In this document: positions 32,366 to 61,036 of the stretch, piece by piece
How the letters are laid out: the number at the start of each line of letters is the position of its first letter
How positions within the stretch are numbered: the stretch's first letter is position 1
NCBI GenBank assembly: GCA_014297435.1
Contig: JACOQA010000001.1
Span: 1-64,000 of the forward strand
DNA from: Candidatus Nanohaloarchaea archaeon
Lineage (GTDB): Archaea; Nanohalarchaeota; Nanosalinia; Nanosalinales; Nanosalinaceae
Length of the DNA stretch: 64,000 nucleotides
Reading direction: 5' to 3'
The notes under the pieces: generated by a model
Databases searched by the model: none
The model's input: the letters and a program-made list of their open reading frames with translations, nothing else
Told to the model about the DNA's origin: nothing
Made by a program: the position numbers and the translations under genes

Positions 32366-33298
32366 ATGAATATTGTATCTCTCTGGGATAGCGCTGTAAG
32401 TGATTGGGAACTTGAGAGACCGTTCTCAAAGCAACAATACAACCGAGACTACGAGCACTACTCTAAACTAGCAGAGGAGAAAGACGCGAAACTGTTCCTC
32501 GCCCACTACACATGGTATAAAGATGGAAGGATGAAGAAAGCCTTTACCTATGAAAACGGTGAGTGGAGGAAAGTAAACGATATTGAAGTTAACGGAGTCT
32601 GGGATGCCTTTAAGGTCAACGATGAAACCTTGGAGATAAAGAGGCGGATGGAAGAAAGGCACGTCATAATTAACAGACCTAATGTCGACAGATTGTGTAA
32701 AGACAAGCTAGAAACTTACGAAAGATTCAGCAATTTGGTTCCAGAGACTAGGAAAGCCTCAGAAACAAATATTGAGAGAATGATAGAAAAGTATGGTGAA
32801 GCTGTCGTGAAACCGAGAGATGACTGGGGTGGAGAAGGGGTACAGATAGTTGAAGATGTTTCCGGATTTAATGATGATTCGGAGGACTGGTTGGTACAGG
32901 AGTTCGTTGATGCTTCAGAGGGAATCTCGAAACTTGGAGTAGAAGGAGTACACGATCTCAGGGCCTTAGTCGTAAACGGGGAGGCAGTGACAGGTTTCCT
33001 GAGGCAGCCGGACGAAGGCTTCGTCAGCAACGTACATCAGGGAGGGAGTATCGAAGTAGTTGAACTTGAAAACTTTCCTAGTGGGGCGCTGAATATTGTT
33101 GAACAGGTTAAGGAAGAGATGTCGGATTTAGAACCTTACTTGATGACTGTAGATATGATATATGATTCAGAGACGGATGAGTTCAGGGTGCTGGAGCTTA
33201 ACTCTAAACCAGGAATGAGCTTCTACGGAAGAGAGGATATGAAAAAGGCAAAGTCAAGGGTTATGGAAAGGATTGTTGAGTCTTTCAAAAATGCCTAA
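32366..33298 (+). CDS. ATP-grasp ligase, RimK-like
   Basis: 310 aa. The ATP-grasp core has AVVKPRDDWGGEGVQIVED (lysine and glycine-rich loop), WLVQEFVDASEG (lid and hinge), LRALVVNGEAVTGFLRQ, and the Mg-binding end TVDMIYDSETDEFRVLELNSKPG. All expected residues are present, so it is likely active. Substrate unknown; members join amino acids to peptides, cofactors or proteins. It is convergent with the next ATP-grasp gene, overlapping its end by four bases, and divergent from the PIN gene. Part of a cluster of three ATP-grasp genes beside a channel with a C39-like domain. Confidence 0.8.
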   Translation: MNIVSLWDSAVSDWELERPFSKQQYNRDYEHYSKLAEEKDAKLFLAHYTWYKDGRMKKAFTYENGEWRKVNDIEVNGVWDAFKVNDETLEIKRRMEERHVIINRPNVDRLCKDKLETYERFSNLVPETRKASETNIERMIEKYGEAVVKPRDDWGGEGVQIVEDVSGFNDDSEDWLVQEFVDASEGISKLGVEGVHDLRALVVNGEAVTGFLRQPDEGFVSNVHQGGSIEVVELENFPSGALNIVEQVKEEMSDLEPYLMTVDMIYDSETDEFRVLELNSKPGMSFYGREDMKKAKSRVMERIVESFKNA

Positions 33299-34176
33299 TT
33301 TCTCTGTTTCTTCATAGCTCTTTCATGAAGCCTTTCAACCATTAGAAGCATAACATCTCTCCCGATTATTTCGTTCATTTCCTCATTTATCCCGTATGAT
33401 CCATTTACCTCAAGCACGTAGGCATCTTCTTCTGTCTCGATTACGTCACAGCCGCAAATGTCGAAACCTGTAGCTCTTGCTGCTCTTAATGCAGCTGTCT
33501 TCATTTCCTCGGTAAGTTCTGCTTTTTTTCTTTCTCCGCCGCCTGAAATGTTGGAACGCCATTCATCACCGCTGCTTGATCTACTGTAGGCCATAACTTC
33601 GTCACCTATAACTATTACTCGGTTATCGGTTCCCGCATGTTCCTTAAAATCCTGTAGACATATTTCTTGCTCGAAAGATTTCATCGTGTCCATAACCGGT
33701 TTTAACTCGTTTTCTGAGGAAGCGCGCATCACCCCCTCCCCGCCACCGCCCTTAATGGTCTTCATGATGATCGGGTATCCTAGTGTTTCGGCTGCTTCGA
33801 CGGCTACATCGGGTGAGAGCGTATAGACGCTGTCCGGTACTTTGATACCTGTCTCGGCAAGAACTTTCATCGAGTAGAACTTGTTTGATTCGTAGCTGTA
33901 AGTGTCGTTAGCAGCTTGTGTAACGACTCCTTCTTCGTTTAGGATCTCGACTAGATGTTCTGAGAATAGCATGTCTCTGTCGGAGGTTCTAATGTAGACT
34001 GCATCGAATTCCGTCAGATCGACGTCCTTGTAGAGAACTTTCTGCCCCTCATCTGTGTGCACCATCTTTAATCCGTCTACAGGAGCTGCTAATACGGAGT
34101 CGAAGATATCTTCGGCTCTCTCCATAAGCAACTGGTGCTGAGTCGATATCTCCCCGTAGATAATGCCTAGTTTCAT
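33295..34176 (-). CDS. rimK: RimK-family alpha-L-glutamate ligase-like ATP-grasp enzyme
   Basis: 293 aa. RimK signature elements: TLGYPIIMKTIKGGGGEGVM (ATP lysine and P-loop), ICLQDFKEHAGTDNRVIVIG, and GCDVIETEEDAYVLEVNGSYG (Mg-binding Glu and Asn). Relatives add Glu to ribosomal protein S6, to coenzyme F420 or to tetrahydromethanopterin, or add amino acids to the carrier protein LysW; the residues here do not decide which. It overlaps the upstream ATP-grasp-like gene by four bases (ATGA), so the two are translationally coupled. Confidence 0.85.
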   Translation of the reverse strand: MKLGIIYGEISTQHQLLMERAEDIFDSVLAAPVDGLKMVHTDEGQKVLYKDVDLTEFDAVYIRTSDRDMLFSEHLVEILNEEGVVTQAANDTYSYESNKFYSMKVLAETGIKVPDSVYTLSPDVAVEAAETLGYPIIMKTIKGGGGEGVMRASSENELKPVMDTMKSFEQEICLQDFKEHAGTDNRVIVIGDEVMAYSRSSSGDEWRSNISGGGERKKAELTEEMKTAALRAARATGFDICGCDVIETEEDAYVLEVNGSYGINEEMNEIIGRDVMLLMVERLHERAMKKQRN

Positions 34177-34982
34177 TTTTCATCCTCCTTCAAAAGATCG
34201 GCAACTGTCTCGTACACGTTTTTGCCGCTTGCATCCGAGAAAAGCTGTAGGTCGGGATTAGGATTGATATCGAAGATCTGTTCGCCTCTTAGCTTTACTT
34301 CGGCTACAGAGGTCCCTAAGGAGTTCATGCATTCCCTGATTTTTTGTTCCTTTGAGTCTGAAATGTTCGAATATTTAGGGTTTTCATCCTTGAATTTCCA
34401 AGAATCGGAGTCGTCTTTTAGTGAAATTATTTCGTCTCCGACCACCAAGCATCGATATTTCTCTCCTTTGTCGTAGTTCTGGAATAGCAGGACGTCAGTC
34501 TCATATTCTGTTCCTTCGGCAAAGCTTTGGATGTCCTCAACGGTTTCCAGTTTTCTTATTTCCGTCTCCTCCAGATTCTCGATTTTTCTACCTACTAAAG
34601 GAGGTTCGACTTGGTTGTGAACATTTCTGGCAGCCTTTTCGCTTGGTACAACCACGGTATTCGGAGATTTGATATCTCTCTTCTTCAGGACGTAGTATAG
34701 GTAATTTTTCTTTGACAAGGTGAAGAAACAGGTTGAGGATATGTTTGTATTAACGCCTTTTTCTTCTGTCATTTCGAGAAGAACTCTTCCGAAGACAGCG
34801 TTTTTTGGTCTTATTGTTGCGAAAACTGCGTCGTAGTCTTCAATACTGTTTCCGTTCACTCTTACATCCTTATTTCCTTCGATAACTTCTGGCGCTATAC
34901 TATCAAGTTTTTTGTGTTCAACATTATCGAAGAAAGGTTCAAATTCTTCTACAGGTTCCTCAGAGATCGTCAGAAGTTTAAT
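34173..34982 (-). CDS. Degenerate ATP-grasp-like protein; probable AUU start
   Basis: 269 aa if it starts at the ATT at 34982. The first canonical start (GTG at 34859) would remove 41 residues that look coding, beginning IKLLTISEEPVEEFEPFF. With ATT as start the product begins MKLLTIS, and a GAGGA sequence lies about 8 bases before it. ATP-grasp parts are partial: a hinge-like VLLFQNYDKGEKYRCLVVGDE and a Mg-type end IFDINPNPDLQLF, but the glycine-rich ATP loop is missing (PPLVGRKIENL). It may be a regulatory or substrate-binding partner of the RimK-like enzyme, with which it overlaps. It follows the channel gene's stop codon directly and in the same frame. Confidence 0.65.
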   Translation of the reverse strand: MKLLTISEEPVEEFEPFFDNVEHKKLDSIAPEVIEGNKDVRVNGNSIEDYDAVFATIRPKNAVFGRVLLEMTEEKGVNTNISSTCFFTLSKKNYLYYVLKKRDIKSPNTVVVPSEKAARNVHNQVEPPLVGRKIENLEETEIRKLETVEDIQSFAEGTEYETDVLLFQNYDKGEKYRCLVVGDEIISLKDDSDSWKFKDENPKYSNISDSKEQKIRECMNSLGTSVAEVKLRGEQIFDINPNPDLQLFSDASGKNVYETVADLLKEDEK

Positions 34983-34988
34983 TGTGGA

Positions 34989-36485
34989 TCAATCCTCGTT
35001 AGGAGACCATAGACGTGTTACATCTCCGTTTTTACGCCATTTCTCCATGTAGCTGGATACTGATTCGGGCATGCTCTCCTGCATAAGTCTTCCTTGTCTC
35101 ATAATCTTTGTAAGCCTCGATTCCAGAGTCTTCGAAAGCTCATCGTAGTAATTTCTGTCGGAGTAGATCAAATCGTTCTTAATCCTCCAGAATGCTGTTG
35201 TTCCCTGAGGTGCGAAGACGTAGTATCCCGAATCGTCAACTATTGCGTCCTGAAGTTTTTCTCTTTCAACATAGTATACTCCGCCATTCTTCACAGGGTC
35301 TACAACCAGGACTTCTCTGTTTTCAACTCCTACACATAGAACGAACTGCTTGCCATCTGATTCAGGGAAAATTTCACTTTTCTCTATCTCCGTTGAAGCA
35401 AGTCCGCCATCATTGAACCAGGTCTTAAGTTCGGCGGAAAGATCAGTTATCTTTTCTTTTTCTATAAATGCAGTTTTTACCTCAGACTCGGTGACCTGTC
35501 TTACCGTCTCATATATTTCTTCGGGACTTGATTCTTCCAGTTTCTCATCTATTTCTTCCTGAGTGGATCGGTAGCCAAAGATTTCTAGTGCCATAACTAT
35601 CGAGGCTGCTCCGCTTGTCTCAGGCTTTTCAGCCACGAAATATTCCTTTATATCTTCAAGTGTTTCAAGGTCGCTCTGGGTTCTCTTGAACGCCATCTTT
35701 GAATCCATCATTTTCTGGTTAGGAACAACTATTGTCCGTCCATCCATGGTGTTGAGGCTTGTACTGAAAAGTGATACTTTCTGAACTTCTGCGATTTCGT
35801 CTTCTATCTCGGCTTCTTCGCCAGGTCTGACGTTCCTTGTGTTTTTGAGGTAGATTCCTGCTGCGTAGTTTTCGAAAAGATCCTTAAAGCCGTAGAACAC
35901 TAGTCCTGCGACAAGGAATGCTACTGCCCAAGATGAGGCAGTGACAAGCTCGTCGACAAACGTACTGCCGATCCCAAATTCAGCAAGAGCTACCTGCATC
36001 AATAACAAGTATAGGAATCCTTTGAGTAGTCCTCCCAGAAGATCTATCGATCCTCCGGAAAGCCCTAGTTCATTCATGTAGCTTTCTGTTCCTAGATTCT
36101 TCAGTAGTTCTCTTCCCAGTCTCGTCGATAGATTGATCGCGATGAAGCCAAGTACGGCTACCATTATCGCAGATATTACTCTAGGTACGTAGCTGGCAAG
36201 GCTTGAAAGAACATTGGCGGATAAACCGGTATTTATGTAGAGTAATGCTAATAGAAGAACTCCTGCGTCTAAAATATAAGATAGGTATTCAAGGATCTCG
36301 TACCGGTTCTCAACCTCTCTTTTAGTGAGTTCCTGGCTTCTGTTAGCCCAGTATTTTTTACCTAGTATGTTTACCAGCTTTACGCCTAGATGTCCTAGTA
36401 CAAGAATTAGGAGCGCTACGCCGGTACGTACCAAAGGGTTTTGCCCCATTCCAAAGTCTAGGAGAGAAGCTAGTAACTGAGCCAT
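34989..36485 (-). CDS. MscS-like mechanosensitive channel fused to a C39-peptidase-like domain lacking the cysteine
   Basis: 498 aa. Residues about 1-215 hold several membrane helices, then an MscS beta domain (VRPGEEAEIEDEIAEVQ and TMDGRTIVVPNQKMMDS) to about 260. The C-terminal 200 residues have a papain-like C39 layout: KPETSGAASIVMALEIFGY at the place of the Q-x-x-x-x-x-C-G motif, with Ser where C39 peptidases have Cys, then an ISTIY-like middle, FVLCVGVENREVLVVDP at the His/Asp position and YYVEREKLQDAI. The Cys and His appear lost, so it would bind peptides rather than cut. It lies 41 bases after aIF2-gamma and directly before two ATP-grasp genes. I know of no described channel of this form. 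Confidence 0.7.
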   Translation of the reverse strand: MAQLLASLLDFGMGQNPLVRTGVALLILVLGHLGVKLVNILGKKYWANRSQELTKREVENRYEILEYLSYILDAGVLLLALLYINTGLSANVLSSLASYVPRVISAIMVAVLGFIAINLSTRLGRELLKNLGTESYMNELGLSGGSIDLLGGLLKGFLYLLLMQVALAEFGIGSTFVDELVTASSWAVAFLVAGLVFYGFKDLFENYAAGIYLKNTRNVRPGEEAEIEDEIAEVQKVSLFSTSLNTMDGRTIVVPNQKMMDSKMAFKRTQSDLETLEDIKEYFVAEKPETSGAASIVMALEIFGYRSTQEEIDEKLEESSPEEIYETVRQVTESEVKTAFIEKEKITDLSAELKTWFNDGGLASTEIEKSEIFPESDGKQFVLCVGVENREVLVVDPVKNGGVYYVEREKLQDAIVDDSGYYVFAPQGTTAFWRIKNDLIYSDRNYYDELSKTLESRLTKIMRQGRLMQESMPESVSSYMEKWRKNGDVTRLWSPNED

Positions 36486-36526
36486 ATAATTAGTTCATCC
36501 TCCTTCAGCCTATAAAAAACCGTGTG

Positions 36527-37717
36527 TCATTCTTTCGACACGATCTCTCCATGGCCGATTAGGCGCCATCTGGAGCCTATCTGGCGGGAGATAGCGACCC
36601 TGTCACCTTCTTCTGCGCATACAGGCACTTTGAGGTCTACTTTGATCCTGTCGCCGGCCTGAGTTACGTAACCTGCTGACTTGCTTGTGCCGACGTTGAG
36701 CATAAGAGGTTCTTTCTCCTTGATGTTCTCGATCTCCTGCTCGTTCTCAGAACCTACAAGACGGTCCATAAGCTCAACATCTACTGTTATATTGTACGTG
36801 ACTTCAGGAAGTTCTCCTTCACGTCCCATGATGTTGCCTGAAAGACCATCAGATTTTCCAAGTGAAGGATCTAGCTTTGTTTCTACTGCGAGAAGTCCTC
36901 CAGGTTTACCTTTCCCTACAGGATTGCCTCCATGGAAAATGTTGGAAACCTCGGTCTTTACAGGCTCCCATTCGTCTTCGGCGACTTTTACGCCAGGACG
37001 GATCTCGACTTTCTCGCCCTTCTCCAGCTCGCCTTTAGTCAGGGAGCCTCCGACAACGCCTCCTTTTATCTCGGAGATCTCGCTTCCTGGCTTGTTGATG
37101 TCGAAAGATCTTGCAAGAAGCATCTTCGGTGCTGCATCATTGTCTCTTTCCGGTGTAGGGATCTCTTCATCAACTGCTTCAAGCAGCGCATCGATGTTAA
37201 CCTGTTGCTGTGCAGAGACAGGTATAATAGGTGCTTCCTCTGCAACAGAACCTTCTAGGAAGTTCTTGATCTGTTCGTAGTTTTCTCGGGCTTCTTCTTT
37301 AGATACTTTGTCTATCTTGTTCTGTACTACTACAATGTTTTCTACTCCTGCGATATCCAGGGCTGCGAGGTGTTCTCTTGTCTGTGGCTGAGGGCAGTCC
37401 TCATCTGCGGCTACAAGAAGGATTGCGCCGTCCATAATCGCTGCTCCTGAAAGAACGTTTGCCATCAGGGTCTCGTGTCCTGGTGCATCGACAAGCGAAA
37501 CAGTTCTCTCAATTTTGCCGTCTCCATCTACGTTCAGCTCACCATCATCATTATAGTATGTGATGTCGGCGTAGCCGAGCTTGATGGTGATGCCTCTCTT
37601 CAATTCTTCTGAGTGTTCGTCAGTCCATTTGCCTGAGAGGGCGTTTGTTAGGGTTGTCTTTCCGTGGTCTACGTGACCTACGAGCCCGATGTTTACCTCG
37701 GGTATTTTATCTGTCAT
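36527..37717 (-). CDS. aif2g: Translation initiation factor aIF2 subunit gamma
   Basis: 396 aa GTPase. GTP motifs: [14 protein letters not shown] (G1), DAPGHE (G3), QNKIDKV (G4) and [10 protein letters not shown] (G5). The two C-terminal beta-barrels follow ([23 protein letters not shown] at the end). As part of aIF2 it delivers initiator Met-tRNA to the 30S subunit. Its start overlaps the stop of the small upstream gene by four bases, which in turn overlaps eS6, so eS6, the small gene and aIF2-gamma form one transcript. Confidence 0.96.
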
Positions 37718-37977
37718 AATATAATTTCATCCTCCGGAACCTTGATAGTTCTTTCTTCGTTCGAAAGTTGGTATTTTTTGGCGAAGGAGAATGAAAATCT
37801 CTCCTCCACTGTGTACTGATTGTCTCGATAACTTACTTCTTCTCCTTCTTGAAACCTAAAACCTCTTAGAGACTCGGTATAAGATTCGACTTCCTGTTTG
37901 TAAGGAAGTGAATCTGCCTTTTTCTCCAGCTTGTTTACTTTTCTATGGAGTTTCCGAGTCCAGGGTTCGTGAGTCAT
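37714..37977 (-). CDS. Small unknown protein between eS6 and aIF2-gamma
   Basis: 87 aa, basic N-terminal half ([19 protein letters not shown]) and strand-rich C-terminal half ([18 protein letters not shown] and [12 protein letters not shown]). It overlaps both neighbours by four bases, so it is certainly translated as part of the ribosomal operon if real. No known family; a translation-related role is possible because of the context only. Confidence 0.6.
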
Positions 37978-38345
37978 TCCTCGTCTTCTGAGAGAAGTTC
38001 TTCGATCGATTCAGATCCTTCATCGACAACTGTCGTGTTAAGCTGCTCGATCGCATCCGATACAGTATTTCCTCTTACTGACTTTCTCTTTCTTTCTCCT
38101 TTCTCTTCTGCGTCGATCCCTGCACCTGAGTCGAGAAGGATTCTACGTCTTCCTGTGCCTTCGATCGATTTTCTCATAGGGAAGCCTTGCTTGTCGCTTC
38201 CGCCGGTAATTTCAAGTTCGTATCCTTCGAGACCGATGATTCCGCCGTCAAAGGTTTCGCCAATCTGTTTTCCTGCGAGTTTGGAAGATTCTTCGGTTTC
38301 GACTTGATGTGTATTTCCGTCGTTGTCTCCGACTGTAACTTTCAT
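37974..38345 (-). CDS. rps6e: Small ribosomal subunit protein eS6
   Basis: 123 aa, the archaeal eS6 size. Clear signature LAGKQIGETFDGGIIGLEGYELEITGGSDKQGFPMRKSIEG, followed by RRILLDSGAG and an acidic C-terminal tail. It heads the eS6/small gene/aIF2-gamma group. The divergent trkH gene begins 105 bases away; this strand carries ATATTTAAAG about 64 bases before the ATG. Confidence 0.93.
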   Translation of the reverse strand: MKVTVGDNDGNTHQVETEESSKLAGKQIGETFDGGIIGLEGYELEITGGSDKQGFPMRKSIEGTGRRRILLDSGAGIDAEEKGERKRKSVRGNTVSDAIEQLNTTVVDEGSESIEELLSEDEE

Positions 38346-38420
38346 TATTTGTTCACCTTTGCTCAGTTCGGTTAGTTCCGAGCATCAATAACCGGTCTTC
38401 TAAGCTTTAAATATGAACAC

Positions 38421-38428
38421 TTTTTATT
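38421..38428 (+). promoter_or_regulatory. TATA box for trkH
   Basis: TTTTATTC is centred about 26 bases before the trkH ATG at 38451, the spacing of a leaderless transcript. Confidence 0.45.
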
Positions 38429-38450
38429 CAGGCCATCGGAAATACGGTTT

Positions 38451-39878
38451 ATGAGGAGTTCAGTTATAGATGATATTGTCGGAAGCTTCCTGAAGATATA
38501 CTCTTTAGTGCTCCTCGTACCGTTTTTTGTCGGAATCTACTTCATGGACTCTATTTTGACAGTTACAGGATTTGGTCTTGCATCTCTGGTTTCTTTCACA
38601 CTAGGTTATGGGCTTTCCGGTTCTACCAAGAAACCTACTGTTTCCGAAGCCATGTTCGCTACAGTACTTGGATGGATACTGGCTATCATACTGGGGGCGA
38701 TACCTTTCATGAGCCACGTTCCTATGATCGATGCTATATTCGAGTCAAGTGCAGGTCTTACAACCACAGGAATCTCTATGGTTCTTGAGCCTTCCAGCCT
38801 GCCTCAATCACTGCTGTTCTGGAGAGGTTTCTCCCAGTGGATCGGAGGTCTAGGAATACTAACATTCTTTATAGCGGTTGTAAGAGAGTCTGGAGGCGTC
38901 ACGAGAAGGCTTTACTCCGCAGAGTCGCATAAGACAGATTCTGGCTCTATAAGACCTTCGCTTAAGAAATCAATAGTTGATCTATGGAAGGTTTACGGTT
39001 TCATAACTGTTCTTTTCGGAGCTATCTATCTGGGTCTCGATATGTCGATATTTGACTCTTTAATGCACGTCTTCTCAGGTATCTCAACAGGAGGTTTTTC
39101 AACACAGGCTTCAAGCATAGGAGGATTCTCTTTAGGCGTCCAGATAGCGACGATTCCGCTAATGTTGCTTGGAGGGATCAACTTCGTCCTGCTATACAAA
39201 CTTCTGAAGATGGATGTCCGCCCTCTTATCGGTAGTTCGGAGTTCAAGATGTACGTTATGATCTTTCTCGGAGTCGCTCTGATGACTTCTACAGAACTAT
39301 TCGTTACCGGAGGGAACTTAGTTGTTTCGATCTTTGAGGGAAGCTTCAAATCAGCCGCAGTGATTTCATCGACAGGGTACTCTACCTTTTCTATCACATC
39401 GCTTTCCGTAGCTTTACAGGTTGTTTTCCTCGCAGTTATGTTTGTCGGAGGATCTTTAGGTTCAACATCAGGAGGATGGAAAGTCTTCAGACTAAAGACG
39501 ATGTACGAAGCTTTGAAGGTCAGGTTAAGAGGTTACAAGCTTCCAGAATCTGCTATAAACAAGGTCAAGATAGATGGAGAGATTGTAAATAATTCAACGG
39601 TTAGAACGATCTCGGTTCTATTCTTTACGTGGATTTCGATGATATTTGTCTCAAGCGTTCTGGTTTTGGTTGCGGATGGAACAAGCTTCATGGCTGCGCT
39701 TTCAGGCTCTATTTCAGCTGCTGGAAACATGGGTCCGGTGTACATGTCGGGGAACGAGATGCTTGCTCTTTCCGGTTTCACAAAGATTCTCTGGAGCTTC
39801 CTGATGCTTGCCGGTCGTTTGGAGATGCTTCCTCTGCTGGCAATATTTAATAGGGAGCTTTTCGAAGGTTCTAAATAA
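38451..39878 (+). CDS. trkH: K+ uptake channel protein TrkH/KtrB type
   Basis: 475 aa, membrane protein with the four pore loops of the Trk/Ktr family: SSAGLTTTGIS, FSGISTGGFST, ISSTGYSTF and SAAGNMGP, each with the filter glycine. It conducts K+ (with Na+ or alone) into the cell, in a complex with the RCK protein TrkA encoded immediately after it. For a cell keeping high internal K+ this would be the main uptake route, opposed by the antiporters at 21.7-25 kb. The gap to trkA is only one base. Confidence 0.94.
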   Translation: MRSSVIDDIVGSFLKIYSLVLLVPFFVGIYFMDSILTVTGFGLASLVSFTLGYGLSGSTKKPTVSEAMFATVLGWILAIILGAIPFMSHVPMIDAIFESSAGLTTTGISMVLEPSSLPQSLLFWRGFSQWIGGLGILTFFIAVVRESGGVTRRLYSAESHKTDSGSIRPSLKKSIVDLWKVYGFITVLFGAIYLGLDMSIFDSLMHVFSGISTGGFSTQASSIGGFSLGVQIATIPLMLLGGINFVLLYKLLKMDVRPLIGSSEFKMYVMIFLGVALMTSTELFVTGGNLVVSIFEGSFKSAAVISSTGYSTFSITSLSVALQVVFLAVMFVGGSLGSTSGGWKVFRLKTMYEALKVRLRGYKLPESAINKVKIDGEIVNNSTVRTISVLFFTWISMIFVSSVLVLVADGTSFMAALSGSISAAGNMGPVYMSGNEMLALSGFTKILWSFLMLAGRLEMLPLLAIFNRELFEGSK

Positions 39879-39879
39879 T

Positions 39880-40539
39880 ATGTATGTAGTAATCGCAGGA
39901 ATCACGACGCTGGGAAGAAAGCTGGTTGAAGAGCTTGAAGACAATCATGACATAGTCGTGATCGATGAAGACCAGGACAGATGTGAAAGACTTTACTCTT
40001 CATCTGGTGCGACAGTGATCAACAAATCTCCATCGAATATTACAGCTCTGGAGGATGCGGGAGTTACGAAAGCAGATGTACTAATATCTGCTCTGGATGA
40101 TGATAACAGCAACATGGTTGTATGCTCGCTTGCGAAGAAATATGGTGTACCTAAAGTTGTTTCAAGAGTGGAAAATGATGAGTATCTTGAGGCATTCGAG
40201 ATAGTGGGAGCTGAACCTATCGCCCACACAGATATCTTACTATCCGAGTTCTTGTCTTACGTAGAACATCCGTATTTGTTGAAGCTTGCGAACCTTTCGA
40301 ATAATCGTGAGATCTTGAAAGCTTCGATCAAAGAAGGTTCGGGTCTCGAAGGAAGGACTCCTAAAGAAATGCAGCAGGACGATAAGTTTCCTGACCGTTT
40401 TAAAGTAGTTTCAGTTCTACAGGACGATAAAACTATCTCCGACGACCTGAATATCCAGTTGAATCAGGAGGACAAGATGATTATGATAGGTCCTTCGGAT
40501 ATGACGGACAAACTTGATCGGTATTTCCAGAAACAGTGA
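39880..40539 (+). CDS. trkA: TrkA-type K+ channel regulator
   Basis: 219 aa from the ATG at 39880, one base after trkH. The RCK_N domain starts MYVVIAGITTLGRKLVEEL and has HDIVVIDEDQDRCERLYSS; the usual G-x-G-x-x-G is altered to G-I-T-T-L-G, but the glycines at each end are kept. A TrkA-C domain fills the last 80 residues (ILKASIKEGSGLEGRTPKEM). It binds NAD(H) or ATP/ADP and gates TrkH. Clear operon with trkH. Confidence 0.92.
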   Translation: MYVVIAGITTLGRKLVEELEDNHDIVVIDEDQDRCERLYSSSGATVINKSPSNITALEDAGVTKADVLISALDDDNSNMVVCSLAKKYGVPKVVSRVENDEYLEAFEIVGAEPIAHTDILLSEFLSYVEHPYLLKLANLSNNREILKASIKEGSGLEGRTPKEMQQDDKFPDRFKVVSVLQDDKTISDDLNIQLNQEDKMIMIGPSDMTDKLDRYFQKQ

Positions 40540-60208: not shown

Positions 60209-61036
60209 ATGGTATCTCTTCCTCCGCAACTTACCAACAAAATTGAACTAATAGGCTTCTCAATCTCCCCACAAATCATAATTGTAGCTCTTCTAGTCGT
60301 TTTCGGCGGCTGGGTGGCTAACAAGATATCAAATGTCTTTATCCAAAGAGCAGTAAAAAGGAGAGGTGGTGACTTGCATGCAGCAGTTACGGGGAAGAAG
60401 ATATCAGCTTACATCATATACACATTAACGTTTATAGTCCTTCTAGGCGTATTTGGAGTACCTCTAACTTCACTTGGTGCGGTAGTAGGTCTTGTAGGTT
60501 TAGGGCTTTCCTTCGCCCTGAAAGACATGATTGCCAACTTCATTTCAGGGGTCTTTATCCTTGCGAACGGAGAGTTCAAGATAGGAGATCAGATCGAGGT
60601 CGCTGGAGAGGAAGGCACCATCAAGGATATTAAGATCCGAGCGACCGATATCAAAACCTTTGATGGACGAAAAGTAATCGTTCCGAACTCACAGCTCTAC
60701 AGCGATGTAGTTATCAACAACACAGCTTACGATGAAAGAAGGTTCGAGGTCGTAGTCGGAATAGGTTACGATGACGATATTGAGAAGGCAAAGGAACTTG
60801 CTTTCGAAGCATTGGAGGAAGCAGAAGGAATAGAAGCTGAACCCGAACCTCAAGTCTTAGTTAATGAGCTAGGAGGGTCTTCTGTTAATCTGAAGCTTAG
60901 AGGCTGGACTAAACCGACCAGAGCGAGTCAGGTAAAGGCTTCGTCTGAACTAACTCAACTCGTCAAGGAAAAGTACGATGGAGCAGGAATAGACATTCCG
61001 TATCCAATCAGAACAGTTTACATGAACGAGGAATAA
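60209..61036 (+). CDS. mscS: MscS mechanosensitive channel
   Basis: 275 aa, the standard MscS size. Three membrane helices are followed by the pore-lining helix 3 (GLVGLGLSFALKDMIANFIS), the beta domain (FKIGDQIEVAGEEGTIKDIKIRATDIKTFDGRKV with PNSQL) and an alpha/beta domain. It opens on membrane tension and protects against osmotic downshock. It differs from the fused channel at 34989 in having a complete, ordinary architecture. A GGGAG/CTCCC hairpin and T-run follow its stop. Confidence 0.92.
   Translation: MVSLPPQLTNKIELIGFSISPQIIIVALLVVFGGWVANKISNVFIQRAVKRRGGDLHAAVTGKKISAYIIYTLTFIVLLGVFGVPLTSLGAVVGLVGLGLSFALKDMIANFISGVFILANGEFKIGDQIEVAGEEGTIKDIKIRATDIKTFDGRKVIVPNSQLYSDVVINNTAYDERRFEVVVGIGYDDDIEKAKELAFEALEEAEGIEAEPEPQVLVNELGGSSVNLKLRGWTKPTRASQVKASSELTQLVKEKYDGAGIDIPYPIRTVYMNEE

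Follow-up and report, generated by a model that had tools for sequence, protein, structure and literature searches.

The rlo operon of Pseudomonas aeruginosa, genetically linked to hypoosmotic stress, encodes the retropepsin RloA, an inactive transglutaminase with seven transmembrane helices (RloB) and the ATP-grasp protein RloC (PMC12239564). Among channels, MscCG of Corynebacterium, an MscS-like protein, exports glutamate (PMC9861469), which makes glutamate-related cargo plausible for the channel considered here. In the papers that we searched, no MscS channel with an attached papain-fold domain is described. The architecture presented below is real and conserved, and it appears to be hitherto undescribed.

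The window, i.e. the whole analysed stretch of 64,000 nucleotides (contig JACOQA010000001.1, positions 1 to 64,000), comes from a member of the nanohaloarchaea, host-dependent salt-in archaea for which osmotic control is critical. Its minus strand carries at 34989..36485 a gene for a fusion protein (P0001, 498 aa, ATG start). The protein consists of an MscS-like channel, a papain-fold C39/phytochelatin-synthase-like domain that is degenerate in this genome (residues ~272-428, 35202..35672) and a conserved C-terminal tail with the pattern TTAxWRIxxxLIY ... RQGR ... W (residues 429-498, 34992..35201). The channel part was delimited by Pfam, AF2 and Foldseek to residues 1-265 (35691..36485), and five membrane helices are predicted in the AF2 model (17-47, 55-86, 90-130, 145-170 and 174-215). 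Pfam search with the window protein matched the beta-domain MS_channel_2nd (PF00924, residues 202-264) at 1.4e-9, above cut-off, and the conserved MscS helix MS_channel_1st_1 at 2.4e-5; Foldseek paired the channel half of the model with E. coli MscS (about 2e-8). The beta-domain follows the pore helix as in the MscS family, and the N-terminal MscS-like channel named in the preliminary description is thereby borne out.

The alpha/beta cage domain that terminates MscS (PF21082) was not found by Pfam in the fusion, and the papain-fold domain stands where it would be. An ordinary MscS paralogue in the same window, at 60209-61036 on the plus strand, has a complete beta-domain together with PF21082. 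Since full-length AF2 modelling of the window protein yielded a pTM of 0.41, the arrangement of its domains is not predicted; by analogy with the MscS fold, rather than from an oligomer model, the papain-fold domain would lie below the pore.

The preliminary description had assigned the C-terminal part to C39 double-glycine peptidases from motif spacing. The window copy alone matches the C39 profile weakly (0.046, below the Pfam cut-off), whereas orthologues with intact active sites pass the curated cut-off of Peptidase_C39_2 (PF13529; 1.3e-7 in L018, 3.6e-7 in L013 and 8.1e-7 in L008), and some of them also that of Peptidase_C39 (PF03412). When the 25 domains were taken in isolation, 22 hit PF13529 with E<=0.1. 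In the AF2 model of the window protein, pLDDT is mostly 77-89 across residues 290-440, and Foldseek matches the C-terminal domain to the peptidase domains of PeiR, PCAT1 and ComA, in agreement with the papain-like fold of the C39/C39-like superfamily. Structural matches include C39 exporter domains and one domain complexed with leader peptide. A search of PDB sequences with a profile of the domain gave no match. Sequence and fold together confirm membership in the C39-like superfamily; a chance motif is ruled out, as orthologue profiles, AF2, Foldseek and the alignment all agree on the C39-like layout.

The closest structure is nevertheless not an exporter peptidase. For the intact L018 domain (pLDDT 86, pTM 0.86), the best Foldseek match is the primitive phytochelatin synthase Alr0975 in its glutathione acyl-enzyme form (9.8e-10, TM about 0.68), followed by PeiR (4.7e-8), PCAT1 (1.2e-7) and ComA (~1e-6). 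The nearest fold is therefore that of family C83 and not of exporter C39. As to the Phytochelatin profile (PF05023), its curated cut-off was reached by no member examined singly (in L008, 9.2e-4 and 18.9 bits against a cut-off of 24.9), and its best value among isolated domains is 7e-5, in one member. C39 domains of ABC exporters are fused to the exporter and act on leader substrates, whereas this one is fused to MscS; given also its best fold match, an ABC-type leader peptidase is not supported. Hence the earlier C39 assignment holds at superfamily level only, and with phytochelatin synthase as the closest structure, one would not naturally predict that the domain binds double-glycine leaders. 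A separate 193-aa C39-like/guanylate-cyclase-2-like protein with an intact DCGPAA motif is encoded elsewhere in the genome to which the window belongs (G000 contig C10, L053:2143-2724; Pfam PF09778 at 2e-23, PF11814 and PF03412).

Alignment of orthologues locates the active site. On the minus strand of the window, the oxyanion-hole Gln of intact relatives corresponds to E286 (35628..35630), the catalytic Cys (CGPAS in intact relatives) to S291 (35613..35615) and the catalytic His (AHYSLCVGV) to Q380 (35346..35348). Only the third triad position, D396 (35298..35300), is kept; it is Asp in 25/25 orthologues and invariant in alignments A1 and A2 too. The two motifs picked out from the window sequence beforehand were placed correctly: ETSGAAS, proposed as the Cys position, aligns with PSYCGPAS, and QFVLCVGV, proposed as the His position, aligns within KQFVLCVGV to AHYSLCVGV. 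The AlphaFold check suggested at that time returned a papain-like fold with Ser (S291) at the Cys position.

The description of the domain as non-catalytic fits the window copy, which lacks Cys and His, but it does not extend to the family. The complete Gln-Cys-His-Asp set is found in 15/25 orthologues, and the family is therefore not intrinsically non-catalytic. In 10/25 Cys is replaced by S, A, N, T or Q, mostly with loss of Gln and His as well; both orthologues with Cys to Ala replacement have His present. Changes of Cys state were mapped on a tree built from columns outside the domain. A minimum of four changes is needed, at least two of them forced by well supported branches. Since intact members are found on either side of the deepest split, Cys is probably ancestral and, judging from these sequences, catalysis was probably lost secondarily. 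Many lineages can do without processing, as their loss of catalysis shows, and this weighs against the reading favoured below. Constraint on the dead domain persists, its dN/dS in a single close pair being 0.072, compared with 0.049 in its channel. On conservation and this single-pair dN/dS, a decaying domain was rejected.

The preliminary description proposed to look for the same domain pair in other nanohaloarchaeal genomes. It is present in 25/28 genomes of the phylum and in 19/19 of the family; order-level and phylum-level genome sets are identical. The three genomes without it (G019, G020 and G022) have completeness of 61-93%. No relatives of the fusion were found on plasmids or viral contigs, and a plasmid or viral origin was rejected on this ground. 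A contig scan with one query sequence retrieved solely nanohaloarchaea and one unrelated MscS. The least acidic sampled genomes, G019 and G020, are without the module, and the third non-carrier, G022, is acidic; these samples are small.

The fusion gene is the first of a cassette. The conserved next gene, G1 (34173..34985, minus strand), encodes a degenerate ATP-grasp protein that is RimK-like, as is that of G2, and G2 (33295..34176, minus strand), which overlaps the end of G1 by four bases, encodes a RimK-family alpha-L-glutamate ligase with intact ATP-grasp motifs. MscS-C39, G1 and G2 are adjacent in 24/25 genomes, a contig end cutting the 25th, and are spaced by about 41 bases or less, or overlap. 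G2 scores 145.5 bits against TIGR00768 (cut-off 143.4), it matches solved RimK structures, and the RSN..GG and D...E.N motifs are retained; these family motifs, also common to LysX and MptN, suggest that it may act on glutamate. No match of G2 was found in the three genomes devoid of the fusion. In G1 the glycine-rich loop is gone, as are the metal-binding residues in most genomes, and it is therefore likely to be a pseudo-ligase; it could serve as partner of some other enzyme. Export of leader peptides, the direction taken by the preliminary description, is not borne out by this organization: the cassette is without ABC exporter or precursor gene, and the two ATP-grasp genes that travel along instead point to glutamyl-peptide chemistry. 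Peptide conduction by the channel found no direct support.

G1 homology reaches about 34985, where ATG, GTG and TTG are lacking, the first GTG being at 34859. Its frame (window 34859-34991) opens with IKLLTISEEP from ATT right after the channel stop, and the relative in L067 (G002) opens with IKLLKI from ATC. Rare AUU/AUC starts are thus possible. A third ATP-grasp gene, G3 (32366..33298, plus strand), is convergent and accessory; it accompanies cassettes whose G2 is of the same subtype and is usually present in those with type-A ligase. Immediately upstream of the cassette, nearly all genomes have genes for aIF2-gamma and ribosomal protein S6e (window 34173-40536 and relatives), and TrkH/TrkA potassium uptake genes diverge on its other side. 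In many Cys-retaining genomes, G2 is followed on the opposite strand by a gene for a P-loop protein of about 340 aa with the motif ASRMDAGKTTL (L062:8119-9144, L063:2502-3515 and similar), in which no Pfam family scored above cut-off.

Further, we compared the history of the cassette with that of its neighbour. Grouping into a single clade of the cassettes with type-A ligase, one of the G2 subtypes, is rejected for aIF2-gamma, with a log-likelihood difference of 86 and p 2e-37, and is not rejected for the non-C39 columns of the channel (p 0.228); as the ligase groups were named post hoc, after the trees had been seen, these p-values are indicative. Two genomes of one genus, G001 and G002, are sisters on the aIF2-gamma tree and carry cassettes from different groups. 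Because the two histories differ, MscS-C39, G1 and G2 look like a single heritable unit that has been exchanged among genomes.

All G2 proteins of Cys-less cassettes come from one supported branch, comprising type A and its sister G027. Cys state requires two changes on the G2 tree, compared with a shuffled mean of about 8, so that the link is strong there, and seven on the aIF2-gamma tree, a number reached by half of the shuffles. On the latter tree, ligase subtype and Cys loss are linked by only two (starred) independent pairs, which puts significance out of reach. Three type-A cassettes (G010, G011 and G016) retain Cys; the change of ligase therefore does not force Cys loss. G027 is the sole Cys-less genome outside the family of the window, and in its contig L074 additional ATP-grasp copies, sharing 43% and 27% identity with G2, lie close to the cassette.

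Other genes join some of the cassettes. A GCS2-family ligase is its fourth gene in 4/15 Cys-retaining versus 0/10 Cys-less cassettes, an association that is suggestive only; GCS2 occurs in just 8/28 genomes. AstE/AspA-like enzymes accompany the cassettes of G021 and G023, and a gene similar to the microtubule tyrosine carboxypeptidase family (MATCAP-like, E 3e-5, below cut-off) lies beside the G017 cassette at L058:8888-10129. A gene of similar length occupies the matching position in G009 (L059). The chemistry of these accessory families (GCS2, MATCAP-like, AstE/AspA-like) is in all cases that of amide bonds.

Since two genes resembling peptide ligases invariably come after the fusion, we suggest an osmotic valve tied to glutamyl-peptide chemistry, in which the papain-fold domain has taken the place of the MscS cage and G1 and G2 are co-inherited with it. 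This is the reading we favour, tentatively, as possible rather than probable. G2, helped by the pseudo-ligase G1, would make or extend cytosolic glutamyl peptides or tails. From its place under the pore, the papain-fold domain would bind what the ligases make and, in lineages with an intact triad, also trim or transfer it. Occupancy by the product might then tune opening or filtering of the valve, so that osmotic release would be coupled to the glutamyl-peptide pool; in the lineage of the window, binding and a structural role alone would be left. A fuller version, in which glutamyl peptides are ligands that tune the valve and are read or edited by the domain, and in which an editor has repeatedly evolved into a pure sensor, we consider more doubtful.

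Several other explanations of the same data were weighed. The domain might be a mere structural replacement of the vestibule, acting as sieve or in assembly, with unrelated ATP-grasp genes kept by linkage. In its favour, catalysis is gone in ten orthologues while the fold remains under selection, the MscS C-terminal domain is absent exactly at the place of the papain-fold domain, and synteny in any case covers the entire neighbourhood, TrkH and the anchor genes included. Against it, Gln, Cys, His and Asp occur together in 15 orthologues, the cassette has a common history in which the equally adjacent aIF2-gamma takes no part, and the genomes without the fusion are also without G2. We therefore hold this explanation to be unlikely, though worth keeping in view. 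Another improbable reading takes the intact domain for an enzyme of phytochelatin-synthase type whose substrate is gamma-glutamylcysteine or some similar thiol, and which would couple redox or metal stress to the channel. The glutathione acyl-enzyme of Alr0975 as best fold match, the Phytochelatin profile value of that one member and the four Cys-retaining cassettes joined by GCS2-family genes speak for such an enzyme; the scarcity of GCS2 across the phylum, Phytochelatin scores below the curated cut-off in members examined singly and the affinity of the window G2 to RimK, not glutathione synthase, speak against it.

The ligases might instead act on the channel itself, e.g. by glutamylating its variable acidic C-terminal tail, a modification that the intact domain would reverse in cis. 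RimK adds Glu to protein C-termini (PMC12239564), the rim system sets a ligase against a peptidase, and many orthologues have Glu/Asp-rich tail ends. However, tails are short in the window protein and several others, which leaves this possibility rather improbable. Very improbable, finally, is that the channel exports a ribosomal peptide modified by ATP-grasp enzymes, whose leader would be bound by the C39-like domain. Ribosomal peptides are modified by ATP-grasp proteins in graspetide pathways (PMC8939145), and the exporter domains and leader-peptide complex among the structural matches would suit this scheme; but no precursor gene fits into the narrow gaps of the cassette, phytochelatin synthase is the best fold match, and an MscS pore lacks the energy supply that directed export would need.

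With respect to known systems, the fusion resembles E. coli MscS in its membrane helices, pore-lining helix and beta-domain, both by sequence and by fold, and differs from it in having the papain-fold domain instead of PF21082. With Alr0975 (C83, PF05023) the intact domain shares the fold, Cys-His-Asp and a motif of P-S-Y-C-G-P-A-S type; in contrast to Alr0975, the fusion has a membrane channel, a profile score below the curated cut-off and, in the window, a dead copy. C39 peptidases, both those of ABC exporters (PF03412) and C39-like ones (PF13529), are related through profiles above cut-off in relatives and through superposition of ComA and PCAT1, but the fusion is without ABC transporter, they are not the best fold, and Cys and His are lost in the window. 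As to RimK/RimB, G2 belongs to the RimK family, whereas its partners are a pseudo-ATP-grasp protein and a channel, and not RimB.

The nearest analogous system and best precedent is the rlo operon, where a RimK-like ATP-grasp protein likewise goes together with a membrane protein whose domain of papain-like fold is inactive (PMC12239564). RloB, however, forms no channel and has its domain assigned to the periplasm, whereas that of the fusion was probably active ancestrally and should be cytoplasmic by MscS topology; the retropepsin RloA and 7TM transglutaminase RloB families were not among Pfam matches of the cassette proteins. The locus would thus be a second, unrelated case in which an ATP-grasp ligase has as its partner a membrane protein with an inactive papain-like domain and a plausible osmotic role, found across most of a phylum that depends on osmotic control. 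Its orthologues form a natural series in which one and the same channel-borne domain is catalytic in some and dead in others, and together with the likeness to rlo this makes the role of such pairs directly testable.
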